Below are positions 8,807 through 33,612 of a DNA stretch of 35,809 bases, one piece after another. The DNA is from a virus: IMG/VR virus record IMGVR_UViG_3300023118_000019, positions 1 to 35,809 of that record. The stretch is one strand, 5' to 3'. A model generated the notes under the pieces. It was not told where the DNA came from, did not search any database, and saw only the letters and a program-made list of their open reading frames with translations. A program made the translations under genes and the position numbers. Each line of letters begins with the position of its first letter. The stretch's first letter is position 1.

Positions 8807-8813
8807 GTGTCTT

Positions 8814-8822
8814 TGATATAAT
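8814..8822 (+). promoter_or_regulatory. Extended -10 promoter (TGATATAAT)
   Basis: TGA then TATAAT at 8817-8822. A start 7 nt downstream would be the A at 8829, which is the first base of a strong hairpin. No clear -35 box, as expected for an extended -10 promoter. The same motif with the same layout recurs before 11368. Confidence 0.6.
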
Positions 8823-8828
8823 AAGGTT

Positions 8829-8900
8829 ACGGGGAGGTTTCGTGCTGTTGTCCTCGCCGTCTAGCCATTACAGAAGAGCTCCGAGAAATCGGAGTTCGTC
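8829..8900 (+). ncRNA. Two-hairpin leader or small RNA between terL and portal
   Basis: The segment between two extended -10 boxes folds into two hairpins. ACGGGGAGG (8829-8837) pairs with CCTCGCCGT (8852-8860) with one G-G mismatch. AGCTCCGA (8877-8884) pairs with TCGGAGTT (8889-8896) around a GAAA tetraloop. The tail CGTCTGTTT is only weakly U-rich, so termination is uncertain. It may be a short RNA, or the structured leader of the virion operon. Confidence 0.45.
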
Positions 8901-8916
8901 TGTTTCAAAGAGCTTT

Positions 8917-8925
8917 TGCTATAAT
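8917..8925 (+). promoter_or_regulatory. Extended -10 promoter (TGCTATAAT) before portal
   Basis: TGC then TATAAT at 8920-8925, 30 nt before the portal start codon. It would give a leader of about 24 nt holding a weak ribosome site. Confidence 0.6.
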
Positions 8926-8955
8926 GGTAATAGAATATAAGATAGGGCTGATAAC

Positions 8956-13939: not shown

Positions 13940-14340
13940 TGGAAACTGTATTTGATGTATTCCCCGAGACTGCTTACACCTTCCTGCAGTTAATACAGGG
14001 AGGTGCTCGAGGTAACTCTGTAAAGGAAAGTACTGATACTACTGGAGTGTTCAAAGAACGCAATGGTATGACTCAGAATAACAACCTTGAGACTAAAGAG
14101 AGCAGTTCAACGCTTCACATTCACCCTAATGAACCATTCATAGCCACTCTGCAAGCCATTACCGGTGGAAACCAGTTCCTAGTTGGACATGGTATTCGCC
14201 ACACTGAGAACGGCTTTACGCAGGAATATCGAATCATCGGCCAAACTGCAGGTAAGAACTTTGATACGAATGTATTAGAGCATTATCGCCTAACGTTAAA
14301 GGCCGAGAGTTTGGTAGGTAGCAATGGCAGTTCGAGCTAG
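13939..14340 (+). CDS. Head closure / stopper protein (probable)
   Basis: 133 residues from ATG 13939, which overlaps the preceding stop. Beta-rich sequence (TLHIHPNEPFIATLQ, EYRIIGQTAG) with a loop region near the middle, as expected for head-closure proteins. The identity rests mostly on gene order between adaptor and gp10-like proteins, so the call is positional. Confidence 0.6.
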   Translation: METVFDVFPETAYTFLQLIQGGARGNSVKESTDTTGVFKERNGMTQNNNLETKESSSTLHIHPNEPFIATLQAITGGNQFLVGHGIRHTENGFTQEYRIIGQTAGKNFDTNVLEHYRLTLKAESLVGSNGSSS

Positions 14341-27410: not shown

Positions 27411-27419
27411 ATTATAACA
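27411..27419 (-). promoter_or_regulatory. Extended -10 promoter (TGTTATAAT) of the leftward operon
   Basis: On the minus strand TGT then TATAAT (27416-27411), then GAGAATAAGGAGAAGCAGT and the ATG at 27391. It can drive the genes from 27391 to 24339. Confidence 0.7.
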
Positions 27420-27450
27420 AATAGGTATCTTTAAGAGACCCCTTTTCCGT

Positions 27451-27462
27451 GCTGTTAACAGC
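27451..27462. promoter_or_regulatory. Perfect 12-bp palindrome (operator candidate)
   Basis: GCTGTTAACAGC is fully self-complementary and sits about 35 bp upstream of the leftward promoter. Palindromes of this size are usual binding sites for dimeric regulators. No second copy was noticed. Confidence 0.4.
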
Positions 27463-27751
27463 CGGGGAGTTAGATCAATAAAGCATTCCCTGAATAAGTA
27501 GCGGAACGAGCTTTTCTTATTTACGTCTATTTGTACTTAAGGGGCGATAAAACCTATTCAATTATTGACTCTCCTCTGGTAACAGTGGGAGATAAAAGAG
27601 AGATATAACTTTCCTTATTTGTACGAGACTATTTTTAAGGTTCATTGTATTCAGTACAAAGCAAGGTTTACGGTACCCTAAAACGCTGAGTGTATTTATT
27701 GGCTGCTTTATAGATACGCCAAAAGCTATACACAAGGACTCCCCATATCTA

Positions 27752-27780
27752 TTGCATAGGAAAGTATCACCTGATATAAT
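27752..27780 (+). promoter_or_regulatory. Promoter TTGCAT-17-TATAAT
   Basis: TTGCAT at 27752-27757 and TATAAT at 27775-27780 with the ideal 17-bp spacer. The only thing downstream is a 40-nt transcript ending at a terminator. Confidence 0.7.
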
Positions 27781-27786
27781 AACAGA

Positions 27787-27828
27787 TGAATACGGACAAC
27801 GAACTAAGGCTTTATGAGAGCCTTTTTT
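27787..27828 (+). ncRNA. Very short promoter-terminator transcript
   Basis: From the predicted start at 27787 to the end of the T-run is about 42 nt. It contains TGAATACGGAC and then the terminator hairpin. It may be a tiny RNA, or a promoter whose transcripts are stopped unless antitermination occurs. Confidence 0.4.
27806..27828 (+). terminator. Intrinsic terminator
   Basis: AAGGCT (27806-27811) pairs with AGCCTT (27819-27824) around a 7-nt loop; the T-run (TTTTTT) begins within the right arm and runs to 27828. Confidence 0.75.
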
Positions 27829-27944
27829 CAATGCCTAATTTTCTTATACCCCAAGTCTGTGAATACGGACTCGGTACTTCTGACTATAACACGCTTATCA
27901 TTTAGGGCACAAGTTGGATTGATAGCGTCTGTGGATTCATTGTG

Positions 27945-28097
27945 TACAAACAAAAAGAATATCAGATTGAAGAGTGTGTAGCCCTATGTCTGATATTCTT
28001 TGTGAGCGTGAGGCTGGAATGGTCAACAACTTGGTGAACCTAATCTTAAACACTACTAATATTTAGATAGGTTCGAAGAGTTAAACACCTCACGCCT
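27945..28097 (-). ncRNA. Candidate leftward structured RNA with terminator
   Basis: The minus strand has TGCTATAAT (28112-28104) and a start at A28097. The RNA begins AGGCGTGAGG, which pairs with CCTCACGC near 28005-28013. Inside, GAACCTA pairs with TAGGTTC around 28030-28074. It ends with a 13-bp perfect stem, AAAGAATATCAGA and TCTGATATTCTTT (plus-strand arms 27954-27966 and 27989-28001) with a 22-nt loop, followed on the minus strand by TTGTTTG. The single-stranded part between stems holds TTGTTGACCATTCC, fully complementary to a 14-nt stretch at 32598-32611. Confidence 0.6.
27946..28001 (-). terminator. Long-stem terminator of the leftward RNA
   Basis: Perfect 13-bp inverted repeat (arms 27954-27966 and 27989-28001); on the minus strand the stem ends in CTTTTTGTTTG. 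The 22-nt loop is larger than usual, so the hairpin may have a second role. Confidence 0.6.
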
Positions 28098-28103
28098 AAA
28101 ACG

Positions 28104-28112
28104 ATTATAGCA
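28104..28112 (-). promoter_or_regulatory. Extended -10 promoter (TGCTATAAT) of the leftward RNA
   Basis: TATAAT at 28109-28104 on the minus strand with TG two bases before it. It is back to back with the recT promoter at 28129-28157, only 17 bp away, so one bound protein could control both. Confidence 0.6.
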
Positions 28113-28128
28113 CGAGCATATTTCATGG

Positions 28129-28157
28129 TTGCAAAAGTCTTATAGCTGTAGTACAAT
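28129..28157 (+). promoter_or_regulatory. Promoter TTGCAA-17-TACAAT for recT (TAGCTGTAGTACAAT family)
   Basis: TTGCAA at 28129-28134, 17-bp spacer, TACAAT at 28152-28157. Shares the 15-mer TAGCTGTAGTACAAT with the promoters at 21843 and 32554. AAGGAATGG follows 13 nt after the -10, as at 32596. Confidence 0.8.
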
Positions 28158-28181
28158 AGATACATAACGAAAGGAATGGTT

Positions 28182-28853
28182 ATGACACAAAATACAGAGG
28201 CAGACGCTAAGAAAGCTAATGCTCAAAAAACAGTCAGTATTTATAAGGAAGTAGTACCGCTAACGGTTGGAATGCTTTCTGAAAATACTCGTGCAAGCAA
28301 AGAGAATATGATTAAGACTATTCACAAGTCTGTTCTAGGGCTCGATAAGCAAGGTCAGTTACGACCGATTGCTGACCTTAAGCTATTCATGGCTCAAGCG
28401 AGTCAGTACGGCCTCAACCCATTTAAGAAGGAAATCTACGCTACGTATATGTGGGATAGCGTTAAGGGCGAAGCTCTTACGCCAATCGTTTCTATTCATG
28501 GCCTCCGTAAGCTTGCTCGCCAAGGTGGTGTTTACACTCACACCGGTGCTGCTGAAGTCACAATGAGTGAGGATGGTAAAGATATTGTTAGTGCCACCGT
28601 TCCTGTATATGGCCAATACGATAAGTCTCAAGCACCTGTTGAAGTAACTCGCTATACTGCGATGTTTGAAGAGTTCGCTAAGACTAACAAAGACGGCAAG
28701 CTCACAAGCACTTGGGGTAAAATGCCAAGAGTCATGATTATCAAGTGTGCTGAAGCAAACGCTATTCGCCAAGGATTTGATATTAGTGGTATCTACATTG
28801 AAGAAGAAATCGCTAGTACTAACATCATTGAAGGTGAAGAGGTAACTGAATAA
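28182..28853 (+). CDS. recT: RecT/Bet-family single-strand annealing protein
   Basis: 223 residues from ATG 28182, with AAGGA 6 nt upstream; ATG 28176 directly touches the AAGGA and is less likely. The Bet-type blocks are clear: SQYGLNPFKKEIYATYMWD, VSIHGLRKLARQGG, and WGKMPRVMIIKCAEANAIRQ with GIYIEEE at the end. Bet/RecT proteins coat single strands and anneal them to complementary DNA, working with a partner exonuclease. The next gene overlaps the stop by 1 nt and carries the nuclease. It may also serve replication, since no replication gene was found. Confidence 0.92.
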   Translation: MTQNTEADAKKANAQKTVSIYKEVVPLTVGMLSENTRASKENMIKTIHKSVLGLDKQGQLRPIADLKLFMAQASQYGLNPFKKEIYATYMWDSVKGEALTPIVSIHGLRKLARQGGVYTHTGAAEVTMSEDGKDIVSATVPVYGQYDKSQAPVEVTRYTAMFEEFAKTNKDGKLTSTWGKMPRVMIIKCAEANAIRQGFDISGIYIEEEIASTNIIEGEEVTE

Positions 28854-30940
28854 TGGCACGTATCGATCACCTGAGCTATTCAGCCATCATTACCTTCCTA
28901 CGCAATCAAGTCGAGTTCCAGAAGCGATATATTGCTAAAGTATACGACAACGCAAAATCACCGGCTATGGTGGTAGGTACAGCTTTTCACAAGGCTATGG
29001 AAGATTACTACCGTCCTGGCACTGAAGTAAGTATGCACGAAGCTATTGAAGCCGGTCTCGCAGTCATCAATAATACAAGTGATTACGAGATGGATTATGG
29101 CAAAACTGGTAGCCGTCAGACCATGATTAAAGAATACACGAACCTCGTTAACAAGTACTTCGAAGAAGCTGAAACATACAATGTTATCGAAGTTGAGAAG
29201 CGTATGGAACACACCATTAATAACGTGCCGATGGTTGGTGTATCTGACCTTATCGTTCGGAACGAAGACACCGGCATGCTTCAAGTGAAGGACTACAAAA
29301 CAGTAATGTCTTACTCATGCCCTACCACTGACCCAAGCGACCCTGAGTACACCGAGAACTATAAGTACCTCCTTCAGGGATATATTTACTTGGCACTTGC
29401 CGAGAAAGAATACAAAGAAGAGGTCGAGTCAGTTTCATTTATCGAAGTGAAGAAGAGTATTAACCGTGATGGCACTCCTCAGGTTCGTGAGTTTGAATAT
29501 GACCGCCAAAGCCTGCTCGAGTTCGCTAACGTAGCCCACAAGATTATCACCAACGTATTCTCATACGTGAATGATGACAATGCAAAGTTCTTCCCTAACC
29601 CAAGCGACTACATCAATGGGCTCGAATCAATGCAAGTTGTTTCGAATATGGAAGAAGGTTTCGATGAAGCTAAAATCCGCCGGAAGATTAAGAGTGGTGA
29701 AAAGTTTGCTCCTCGAAACATCACGGTTGATATTGGTGAAGACACTGGTACAAGCGAAGAGTTAATCCTTCGTAAGTTCATGGAGTTCGGTATCGGTGGT
29801 ATTAGCGGCAAGAGCTACGAAGGTGCCTCAGTCATCCGTTATACATTCAAACCTAATCGTGGCGTATCAATGGGATCTATTGCGAAACGTTCAGATGACA
29901 TCGCTATTGCACTGCAGGCTAAGTCAGTCCGTATCGAAGCACCTATCTTTGGTACTGACTTGGTAGGTGTTGAGGTTCCAAACCCTAACCGCCGTAAGAT
30001 TGATTTGAGTGATGAGAAGCACTTGAAGCCTGGCACAACGCTCATTCCTATCGGTGAAGACATCTTTGGTAAAGTTCACTATGGTGATATTACTAAAATG
30101 CCTCACCTCCTTATTGCCGGTCAGACTGGTTCCGGTAAGTCAGTTATGCTTAACGTTATCCTGCACTCACTTACTCAACAGCTATCACCAAAAGAGCTTC
30201 AGCTAGTATTGATTGACCCTAAGCAGGTTGAGCTCGCTATGTTTGAAGATGTACCTCACCTATACCGTCCTATCGTTACTGATACGGTACGGGCTACTCA
30301 GGTGCTTGATGAAATGGTTCAGCTTATGGAGAGGCGTTACGAGATACTCCGTGAAGCTAAGGTTCGAAGCATTGATGATTACAAAGGTGAAATGCCACGA
30401 ATTATCGTAGTGATCGATGAGTTCGCCGACCTAATTATGATGGCCGACAATAAGAAGCAGAACTTTGAAATCAATTCAGTTGAGCTTGCAAAGGCAATCA
30501 TTCGCTTCAGTCAGAACAACGCTGACCTGAATCAAATCGACCTTGACCTGCTGACTGCTACGATTCCTAAGGGAGACAAAGCTTCAGCTGAAAAGAAGAA
30601 AGAAGATAAGGCTGTACTCAAAGAGCTCAAGAGCATGATTCTATCTGCTGCAGAAAGCGACACACCACCGGCTGAACATTCAATCATCCGTATCGCTCAG
30701 AAGGCTCGTGCCGTGGGTATTCACCTTGTACTTGCCACTCAGCGACCAAGTGCAGACGTTGTAACGGGATTGATTAAAGCTAACATCCCTACGAAGATTG
30801 CCTTCGCAGTAACGACATCAATGAACAGTCGTATCATCCTTGATGAGACTGGTGCAGAGCAACTCACGGGCTATGGAGATATGCTGTATCTCGACCCAAG
30901 TGCACGACATTTAGAACGCCTTCAAGGGCTATATAAGTAG
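28853..30940 (+). CDS. PD-(D/E)XK exonuclease fused to an FtsK-type DNA translocase
   Basis: 695 residues. Residues 1-250 are a RecB-type nuclease: His46 in VGTAFHKAMEDYY, Asp132 in MVGVSDLI, Asp147 and Lys149 in LQVKDYKT, and Gln175/Tyr179 in LLQGYIYLAL. No four-Cys Fe-S cluster is present, unlike Cas4. Residues about 290-390 match the FtsK alpha domain (VIRYTFKPNRGVSMGSIAKR, VRIEAPIFGTDLVGVEVPN). Residues 415-690 are the beta motor: Walker A GQTGSGKS at 423-430, Walker B IIVVIDEFAD with Asp522/Glu523, then HLVLATQRPSADVVTGLIKA. About 80 extra residues separate Walker B from AQKARAVGIHL. No gamma domain. It probably moves along DNA while resecting ends for RecT. The fusion is unusual. Confidence 0.9.
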   Translation: MARIDHLSYSAIITFLRNQVEFQKRYIAKVYDNAKSPAMVVGTAFHKAMEDYYRPGTEVSMHEAIEAGLAVINNTSDYEMDYGKTGSRQTMIKEYTNLVNKYFEEAETYNVIEVEKRMEHTINNVPMVGVSDLIVRNEDTGMLQVKDYKTVMSYSCPTTDPSDPEYTENYKYLLQGYIYLALAEKEYKEEVESVSFIEVKKSINRDGTPQVREFEYDRQSLLEFANVAHKIITNVFSYVNDDNAKFFPNPSDYINGLESMQVVSNMEEGFDEAKIRRKIKSGEKFAPRNITVDIGEDTGTSEELILRKFMEFGIGGISGKSYEGASVIRYTFKPNRGVSMGSIAKRSDDIAIALQAKSVRIEAPIFGTDLVGVEVPNPNRRKIDLSDEKHLKPGTTLIPIGEDIFGKVHYGDITKMPHLLIAGQTGSGKSVMLNVILHSLTQQLSPKELQLVLIDPKQVELAMFEDVPHLYRPIVTDTVRATQVLDEMVQLMERRYEILREAKVRSIDDYKGEMPRIIVVIDEFADLIMMADNKKQNFEINSVELAKAIIRFSQNNADLNQIDLDLLTATIPKGDKASAEKKKEDKAVLKELKSMILSAAESDTPPAEHSIIRIAQKARAVGIHLVLATQRPSADVVTGLIKANIPTKIAFAVTTSMNSRIILDETGAEQLTGYGDMLYLDPSARHLERLQGLYK

Positions 30941-32358: not shown

Positions 32359-32543
32359 TGAAAGAATATTACTATTGGAGCGTAATCGGTGCTGCTGTAT
32401 TGACTTGTATAACCGCAATTATATTCACAATCATCGTTGTTGCTACAGGTTTAAAGCCATTTTGGATGGTGATACTAATCGTCCTATTAGCAATATATGT
32501 AATAGTAGGTGCCTTTATTGAAGGTAGAGATCGAGATTTTTAG
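32358..32543 (+). CDS. Small two-span membrane protein (61 aa)
   Basis: 61 residues with two hydrophobic helices (SVIGAAVLTCITAIIFTIIV and WMVILIVLLAIYVIVGAFIE). No charged domain. Overlaps the previous stop. Last gene of the recT block. Confidence 0.65.
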   Translation: MKEYYYWSVIGAAVLTCITAIIFTIIVVATGLKPFWMVILIVLLAIYVIVGAFIEGRDRDF

Positions 32544-32553
32544 CATAAGGGTA

Positions 32554-32582
32554 TTGACTTTTAATCCTAGCTGTAGTACAAT
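32554..32582 (+). promoter_or_regulatory. Promoter TTGACT-17-TACAAT (TAGCTGTAGTACAAT family)
   Basis: TTGACT at 32554-32559 and TACAAT at 32577-32582 with a 17-bp spacer. The 15-mer TAGCTGTAGTACAAT is shared with 21843 and 28129. AAGGAATGG follows 13 nt after the -10, the same distance as in the recT promoter. Confidence 0.82.
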
Positions 32583-32588
32583 GATATG

Positions 32589-32920
32589 TAGACCTAAGGA
32601 ATGGTCAACAAGAAACGGAACAGGAAAAATGCACTCGCCCAAGCTAACGTAATAGGGCACTCCGAATCTTACCAATCAATAATAAACATACTGAGTAGCT
32701 CCCGACTGGGAAATCAAGCAGGGTAATCGGATGAAACCTCCGGCACGAGTCTTGCCAATGAACCTGGTCGAAAGCTACTCAGGCAAAACAATTTAGTCAG
32801 TACCTTGCTATATAATTAACCACCGTCCTTCTGATGATTAGCAAGCCCATCGATTGAGCTTTTCAGAGAGCTGGCAACGAAGATGGAATATTGTATAGCG
32901 AATACTGACTGAATTGTGAA
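32589..32920 (+). ncRNA. Large structured RNA or leader, about 330 nt
   Basis: Between the promoter and the ribosome site at 32922 there is no sizeable gene. Two closed domains stand out. Domain A: CTGAGTAGCT (32691-32700) pairs perfectly with AGCTACTCAG (32773-32782) and holds smaller stems (GGCA/TGCC, CGAC/GTCG). Domain B: 13 nt at 32790-32802 pair with 32903-32915 with a single U-G pair, enclosing CTTGCT/AGCAAG, CCATC/GATGG and GAGCT/AGCT. A 5' stem GACC/GGTC and GCCC/GGGC precede. No terminator was seen, so it may be the 5' leader of the lysozyme unit. No known class was recognised. Confidence 0.6.
32601..32726 (+). CDS. Possible 41-residue leader peptide inside the RNA
   Basis: ATG 32601 to TAA 32724-32726 could encode a basic peptide starting MVNKKRNRKNALAQANVIGH. 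The ATG lies 19 nt after the -10, as does ATG 28176 in the recT transcript, but AAGGA touches the ATG, which is poor for translation. The frame runs through domain A of the RNA, so it is listed with low confidence. Confidence 0.22.
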   Translation: MVNKKRNRKNALAQANVIGHSESYQSIINILSSSRLGNQAG

Positions 32921-32932
32921 TAAGGAGGGTAT

Positions 32933-33154
32933 ATGCCTGATTCAACTAAAAAAGTAACAACTAAATCAGCTAAAGCAAAGTGGACTCAAGCTCAGACACT
33001 TGGATTCTGGTTCCTATTAACGGCACTGATTATGTTCTGGGGTGGCGTGACTATCGGTAGTTATTCTACTGATAACAGCTACAAAGAACGTGAAACTATC
33101 AAGTCTCAAGCAGTTGAAGAATACAAAGCTGAACTGTCAAAAGAAGTCCAGTAG
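32933..33154 (+). CDS. Single-span membrane anchor ORF (likely N-part of the lysozyme)
   Basis: 73 residues with a strong AAGGAGG site. Basic start (STKKVTTKSAKAKWTQ), one membrane segment at about 25-46 (LGFWFLLTALIMFWGGVTIG), then a charged stretch (KERETIKSQAVEEYKAELSK). It ends at TAG 33152, but the -1 frame is open from 33133 into the lysozyme ORF. The product alone is a small anchor; joined, it makes a membrane-tethered lysozyme. Confidence 0.68.
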   Translation: MPDSTKKVTTKSAKAKWTQAQTLGFWFLLTALIMFWGGVTIGSYSTDNSYKERETIKSQAVEEYKAELSKEVQ

Positions 33155-33192
33155 TTCTTACCGCACCTACTGAGAAAGTAAATGCGGTAATA

Positions 33193-33612
33193 GTGGAGGA
33201 CATCAATGTCCTCCAGAAAGCACCTGAAAAATCTAGCGAACAAGTTGCATGGGAGTTCTTCATTAGTAAGGGCTTCACTGCAGAACAGACCGCAGGTATC
33301 ATGGGGAACCTGAAGCAAGAACATAACTTCAAGACAAGTGATGTTCCCGGCGGTCTTGGTATCGCTCAGTGGATGGGAGCAAGGCGAGAAAGGCTTATAC
33401 AGCGAGGAAGTCATCTCGATCTTAACTCCCAACTGAACTTCATTATTGAAGAGTTCGAAACTACCGAGTCAGCGGCATACCGTGGCGTAAAAGCCTCATC
33501 AACCGTTGAACAATCAACCATCGCTTTCCAAAACCTTTATGAGAGGTGTGGCAAGTGTATGCAAGACACTCGTATTCAATTTGCACTAAATATGTATTAT
33601 AATTATAGATAG
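33193..33612 (+). CDS. Phage tail-type lysozyme domain
   Basis: 139 residues from a GTG at 33193 with no ribosome site. The domain is clear: AWEFFISKGFTAEQTAGIMG, a catalytic-type Glu in LKQEHNFK, GGLGIAQWMGARRERL, and FQNLYERCGKC near the end. This matches the phage tail lysozyme family that cleaves peptidoglycan. The frame is open back to 33133, reading PVVLTAPTEKVNAVIVEDIN, a plausible linker. Fusion by a -1 shift to the preceding membrane anchor, or a recent frameshift, is likely. Second wall-cutting enzyme of the phage. Confidence 0.78.
   Translation: MEDINVLQKAPEKSSEQVAWEFFISKGFTAEQTAGIMGNLKQEHNFKTSDVPGGLGIAQWMGARRERLIQRGSHLDLNSQLNFIIEEFETTESAAYRGVKASSTVEQSTIAFQNLYERCGKCMQDTRIQFALNMYYNYR
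33598..33603 (+). promoter_or_regulatory. -10 box before 33619
   Basis: TATAAT at 33598-33603 with TTCAAT 17 bp upstream, at the end of the lysozyme ORF. It would give a short leader with AGGA before the ATG. Moderate support. Confidence 0.4.

Follow-up and report, generated by a model that had tools for sequence, protein, structure and literature searches.

Anatomy and fold of the leader

The window, the whole 35,809-nt stretch of viral DNA that was analysed (IMG/VR record IMGVR_UViG_3300023118_000019, positions 1 to 35,809), contains a promoter that leads into an untranslated stretch and then into genes for a small membrane protein and a lysozyme. The features of this locus are as follows.

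32554–32582, plus strand: sigma-70-type promoter TTGACT-17-TACAAT (10/12 match), with a similar block before the recT-like gene
32554–32611, plus strand: promoter and first ~23–30 nt of the RNA, the most conserved block (94.8% in contig L006)
32589–32920, plus strand: structured untranslated leader RNA, from fold statistics against shuffles
32691–32782, plus strand: domain 2, closed by 10 perfect pairs and 8 further pairs (z −6.2 alone)
32785–32797, plus strand: degenerate boxA-like motif AAAACAATTTAGT, 11/13 to the host rrn boxA TTAACAATTTAGT
32788–32917, plus strand: domain 3, closed by 15 pairs (one U-G) and 12 further inward (z −6.9 alone)
32922–32929, plus strand: ribosome-binding site AAGGAGGG, containing AAGGAGG, from the sequence
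32933–33154, plus strand: small membrane protein with ATG at 32933 (weak PHROG match to an Rz-like spanin, E 0.0027)
33193–33612, plus strand: lysozyme (PF18013), in a frame open from 33133

The promoter with a 17-bp spacer that had been named in a preliminary description is present and conserved in L006, a contig found by protein search whose exonuclease-FtsK fusion protein is 70–74% identical. Counted from the −35 box, the first 58 nt share 94.8% identity with L006, compared to ~70–76% in nearby coding DNA, so that promoter and transcript start are strongly conserved. The L006 contig stops inside the element, so that its overlap with the window RNA excludes domains 2 and 3; the window RNA is thus represented by one full sequence, and the covariation counts given below come from a cousin pair. 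Promoter-like sites overall were not enriched in the region (12 found vs 10.4 expected). From the promoter position, transcription is expected to start at ~32589, and no gene lies between the promoter and 32933. The approximately 330 nt without a sizeable gene described earlier hold the single 41-codon ORF at 32601–32726 (MVNKKRNRKNALAQANVIGHSESYQSIINILSSSRLGNQAG), which starts at a conserved GGAATGGTCAAC and is a possible leader peptide; its Shine-Dalgarno-like AAGGA touches the ATG and is too close. No terminator was found behind the leader RNA.

The membrane-protein frame (32933–33154) and the lysozyme frame (opening at 33133) differ and their open reading overlaps (window 33120–33200), and a CAAAAG run and a 14-pair hairpin (33158–33190) lie at the junction. 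The relative in L003 is a single continuous TM-lysozyme protein, and the junction may be explained by programmed −1 frameshifting, by a real frameshift or by one that arose in sequencing. No relatives were found with the small membrane protein as a search probe. In the lysozyme relative L003, no leader of this kind directly precedes the lysozyme, and L011/L020 (a 68% relative) have no comparable gap downstream of the FtsK gene.

The RNA structure of the leader is well supported. Positions 32589–32920 have a folding energy of −103.4 kcal/mol (z −5.83; none of 100 shuffles as good), and independent shuffles gave z −6.64 for the sense and −2.88 for the antisense strand. The stretch from 32776 (plus strand) ranks first of the 952 windows of 150 nt taken from both strands of the whole 35.8-kb record. 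No stretch of the window folds better than domain 3, which adjoins the ribosome site; the 5′ part (32589–32680, ~90 nt) is weakly folded. These values bear out the earlier impression of order beyond chance. The first closing stem was found exactly as described (10 perfect pairs, 32691–32700/32773–32782). The second does contain one U-G and does end close to the ribosome site, although it measures 15 pairs (32788–32802/32903–32917) rather than 13 and the gap to AAGGAGG is 4–6 nt rather than 7. Calling the domains multi-branched was partly right, as domains 2 and 3 are mainly long interrupted stems. Chance folding, or a palindrome acting at the DNA level (an origin or a recombination site), would be in line with there being a single full sequence and with the occurrence of inverted repeats in DNA elements too. 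We nevertheless consider it very improbable, given the z values below −5.8, the top rank in the record, the better folding of the sense strand through G-U pairs, and the recurrence of such elements in related phages, one pair of which shows covariation.

Rfam covariance models, which include riboswitches, GOLLD, ROOL and self-cleaving ribozymes, gave no match at the gathering score in the window and none up to E 10 in 32400–33200, in agreement with the earlier assignment to no known class. A nucleotide search of the phage collection with the window RNA returned no relative. The covariance model R2, built on domain 3, matched itself alone among the loci compared here, and a search of 393 genomes of the class, run without a positive control, gave no further match. 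Three candidates were rejected: exact 17-mer matches in L008–L010 are due to chance, the contigs being unrelated; an attC integron site, suggested by TAACAATTC, was set aside by reasoning from the sequence as a partial test, as the motif has no paired GTTRRRY end; and for a hammerhead core (CUGAUGA in domain 3) neither a matching arrangement nor an Rfam match was found. Overall, a structured RNA with its own promoter and of no known class is supported.

Cousin elements in related phages and prophages

Contig L013, reached via the exonuclease-FtsK fusion protein, is a prophage-bearing contig of a ~0.7-Mb genome. In the 16S genes of relatives of this genome, the sites of what we take to be the TM7 (Saccharibacteria) primers 580F and 910F were present at 15/15 and 13/15 loci, respectively, and because of these sites the host class was taken as Saccharibacteria. 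Judged by gene similarity, the window virus probably infects Saccharibacteria as well.

Further branched noncoding elements with long stems lie between small genes in related phages and prophages. They differ in sequence, and no sequence conserved across the phages was found.

L013, 12864–12992 and 14147–14236: cousin elements
L031, 14687–14825 and 14846–15069: cousin elements
L029, 5793–5948, 9576–9717 and 9910–10040: cousin elements
L069, 8291–8444: cousin element
L076, 1704–1791: cousin element
L077, 1366–1470: cousin element

Elements in L013, L029 and L069 reached stem scores of 45–62, and the same finder reported no stem above a score of 40 in ~290 kb of the L013 host genome (L034–L048). 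The closing stems of the cousins and of the window comprise 15–28 pairs and enclose interiors of 90–220 nt with helices of their own. For most cousin elements the sense strand gives the better fold, with G-U pairs, and the second L031 element, the L069 element and some L029 elements are nearly symmetrical in sense and antisense. The L013 element at 14147–14236 and the L069 element are homologous: among 30 pairs, five carried double changes, five one-sided changes and none was broken, counted on a hand-drawn structure with one variable L069 loop shortened for alignment. A covariance model built on this pair (R1; L013 14143–14240 and L069) gave no match in the window; the window RNA resembles the R1 elements in anatomy and is not a sequence member. 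Used as a DNA probe in relatives, L029 matched FtsK coding sequence alone and was discarded.

In L031, a near-consensus promoter lies just upstream of the element, and it is on this account that the locus mirrors the anatomy of the window (promoter, 330–400 nt of structured RNA, ribosome site, gene). The genes behind the elements vary: a small ORF in L031, a nuclease-like gene in L077, a small ORF and a small membrane ORF in L013, and a small membrane ORF and a recombination gene in L076. This bears on the suggestion in the preliminary description of a riboswitch-like leader for the wall-cutting enzyme, for which the position of the RNA as a leader and its structure near the ribosome site would speak. 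Because the cousin elements precede unrelated genes, a riboswitch that binds a ligand and controls the lysis genes is unlikely; a conserved aptamer was not found either, nor did Rfam offer a match, and we regard this as the least probable of the readings considered.

Host-type boxA and the proposed mechanism

Three of the cousin stems are directly preceded by UUAACAAUU, which lies flush with them, and the same holds for a fourth element, in L077. By its sequence, UUAACAAUU resembles the boxA of rRNA operons, and it was predicted that host rrn leaders contain it. It was found between promoter and 16S in 8/14 host leaders, usually as UUAACAAUUURGUUGUGCA; other leaders contain close variants (UUGACAAUUUAG, GUUAAAAAUUGAAUAGUGCAA), and the host rrn spacers also contain UUAACAAUU. 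The core of the motif is shared by the rrn boxA of E. coli. With a matrix made from the host sites, the phage sites took the top two ranks in L031, the top rank in L077 and in L076, and rank two in L013. The L076 match, in a locus kept out of the motif definition, lies 30 nt before the strongest long stem there. The heptamer AACAATT was associated with three stems scoring at least 32, compared to none for 22 non-overlapping control 7-mers of the same composition. The link between boxA and stem was found post hoc in a small set and was later supported by the host leaders and L076. Overall, the match to the host rrn boxA is clear in L031, L013, L076 and L077, and no clear boxA was found at the L029 elements or at L013 12864.

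In the window, AAAACAAUUUAGU at 32785 overlaps the 5′ foot of domain 3. Its 11-nt AACAAUUUAGU is identical to the host leader boxA, and the preceding UU is replaced by AA. With two mismatches allowed, the chance expectation for the window (both strands) is 1.5 sites; two were detected, one on each arm of the domain 3 closing stem. The motif falls outside the top matrix matches and is paired in the predicted fold; as a sequence match it is suggestive, not proof, of a boxA. A weaker candidate, GGUCAACAA, is located at 32604 inside the block conserved in L006; it occurs again near 28019, where a further folded stretch follows.

A survey of 77 viral promoter-boxA sites yielded a mean z of −1.24 compared to −0.77 for controls, with none below −5, and strong structure is therefore not a general companion of viral boxA. 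In six unrelated IMG/VR contigs (L119, L133, L136, L155, L165 and L175), a strong promoter is closely followed by CTTTAACAATTT, the rrn boxA of the proteobacterial type. It may be common for viruses to use boxA of the rrn type.

We tentatively read the window RNA, at somewhat less than an even chance, as a real and selected untranslated 5′ leader of a phage operon that is structured and linked to boxA and the Nus factors, perhaps closing, by analogy, like a small pre-rRNA leader-trailer helix and possibly trimmed later. A host-type boxA in cousin elements suggests a role in transcription antitermination or in RNA folding assisted by boxA. In the published model for rRNA, the NusB-bound boxA stays with the polymerase while the RNA that follows it is kept at the exit channel, and the trailer, on emerging, pairs with this segment (PMC10250234). 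Such a model would make use of the cousin arrangement because boxA sits there at the foot of a long closing stem. As the nascent RNA leaves the polymerase, NusB and S10 would bind boxA and remain with the enzyme, the 5′ arm would be kept near the exit channel while the middle loops out, and the 3′ arm would close the long stem on emerging, in the manner suggested for the leader-trailer helix of pre-rRNA. A polymerase modified in this way would then transcribe the untranslated leader and the operon without being stopped by Rho; a boxA at the stem foot could both keep Rho off a long untranslated RNA and promote closure of the stem. Agreement with this model is good for the cousin elements and moderate for the window. 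We infer Nus binding and antitermination, less firmly for the window than for the cousins, and for the window also a function of its degenerate boxA.

An alternative explanation is that the long stems are processing sites of the RNase III type, which would cut the mRNA between genes and set its stability and would leave the window boxA without a role. The intergenic RNase III sites of phage T7 work in a comparable way, and closing stems of 15–28 pairs that are intercistronic, lie shortly before ribosome sites and vary freely in sequence would suit such a function. Interiors of 90–220 nt with their own helices, however, exceed what a cleavage site needs, and both the dedicated promoter directly ahead of the RNA in the window and L031 and the boxA flush with the stems in the cousins speak against this explanation, which we consider unlikely. 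The structured RNA could also be released and act in trans as a stable RNA of the phage, such as a decoy, scaffold or packaging RNA. It has its own promoter and a strong fold, does not depend on any single downstream gene, and boxA could merely guard an untranslated RNA against Rho; an independent, processed RNA is possible. On the other hand, a terminator behind it is absent, a ribosome site follows 4–6 nt past the last stem and sequence conservation across phages is lacking, and action in trans appears distinctly unlikely to us.

The arrangement in rrn leaders (rrnTAC; PMC10250234) is similar in that boxA lies between the promoter and a long helix enclosing structured RNA, and the motif of the cousin elements is the host's own rrn boxA. 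It differs in that the phage elements enclose 90–220 nt of phage RNA instead of rRNA and lead into protein genes, and in that the window boxA is degenerate, with Nus binding a prediction here. The lambda nut site (boxA and boxB) is likewise a phage leader with boxA and then a hairpin downstream of a promoter, whereas the stems described here are far longer and branched. The HK022 put RNA and the processive antitermination RNAs of the EAR and LoaP type are structured nascent RNAs behind a promoter and ahead of an operon, and put works without boxA. The window RNA also lies just behind a promoter and before an operon, and antitermination is predicted for it. BoxA acts outside rRNA as well (PMC5725501): a known non-rRNA leader shares the boxA, which can affect termination and translation, but the large structured domain is absent there. 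The giant RNAs GOLLD and ROOL (PMC12286853) are equally ornate and phage-linked, but are larger and form conserved families, while the window RNA has no Rfam match.

A broader proposal, possible in our view though doubtful, is that Saccharibacteria phages possess a family of miniature pre-rRNAs in which a host-type boxA tethered to the polymerase, a long leader-trailer-like helix and the freely varying branched RNA inside it drive processive transcription of untranslated RNA and of phage operons. To our knowledge, no phage antitermination has been described in this phylum. If true, it would add a new type of Nus-linked RNA element, with phages joining the host's ribosomal antitermination signal to large structured RNAs. 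Transcription control in a barely tractable phylum would gain a testable entry point, and the model in which tethering by boxA allows RNA strands far apart to form long helices could be tested anew. For annotating such phages and prophages, the host rrn boxA (UUAACAAUU and its variants) is useful in itself.

Other stretches of the window and its relatives

A long noncoding stretch at 27412–28176 precedes the recT-like gene, and its right 560 nt are ~71% identical to L006. Its hairpins keep their pairing through two-sided changes, e.g. GAATATCAGA/TCTGATATTC compared to AAATACCAGA/TCTGGTATTT, and it also has a terminator-like hairpin. The promoter and start block before the recT-like gene (28143–28180, with AAGGAATGGT) is 85% identical over 38 nt to the block of the structured RNA, and the two operons may be co-regulated. 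At 28853–30940, an exonuclease-like N-terminal part is fused to an FtsK-like ATPase and adjoins a RecT-like protein; fusion and RecT-like protein are conserved as a unit in L006, L011, L013 and L028. The end of contig L006 (13599–13657) coincides with the end of the block common to the window and may mark an assembly break at sequence common to related phages. Another strongly folding noncoding stretch (8807–8955, z −6.5), with a GAGCTCCGAGAAATCGGAGTTC hairpin, lies before a large gene. Upstream of recT in L020 (640–860), a tRNA (766–838) is accompanied by a partial copy of its 5′ part, with GGGTGTAGCTCAG present twice.
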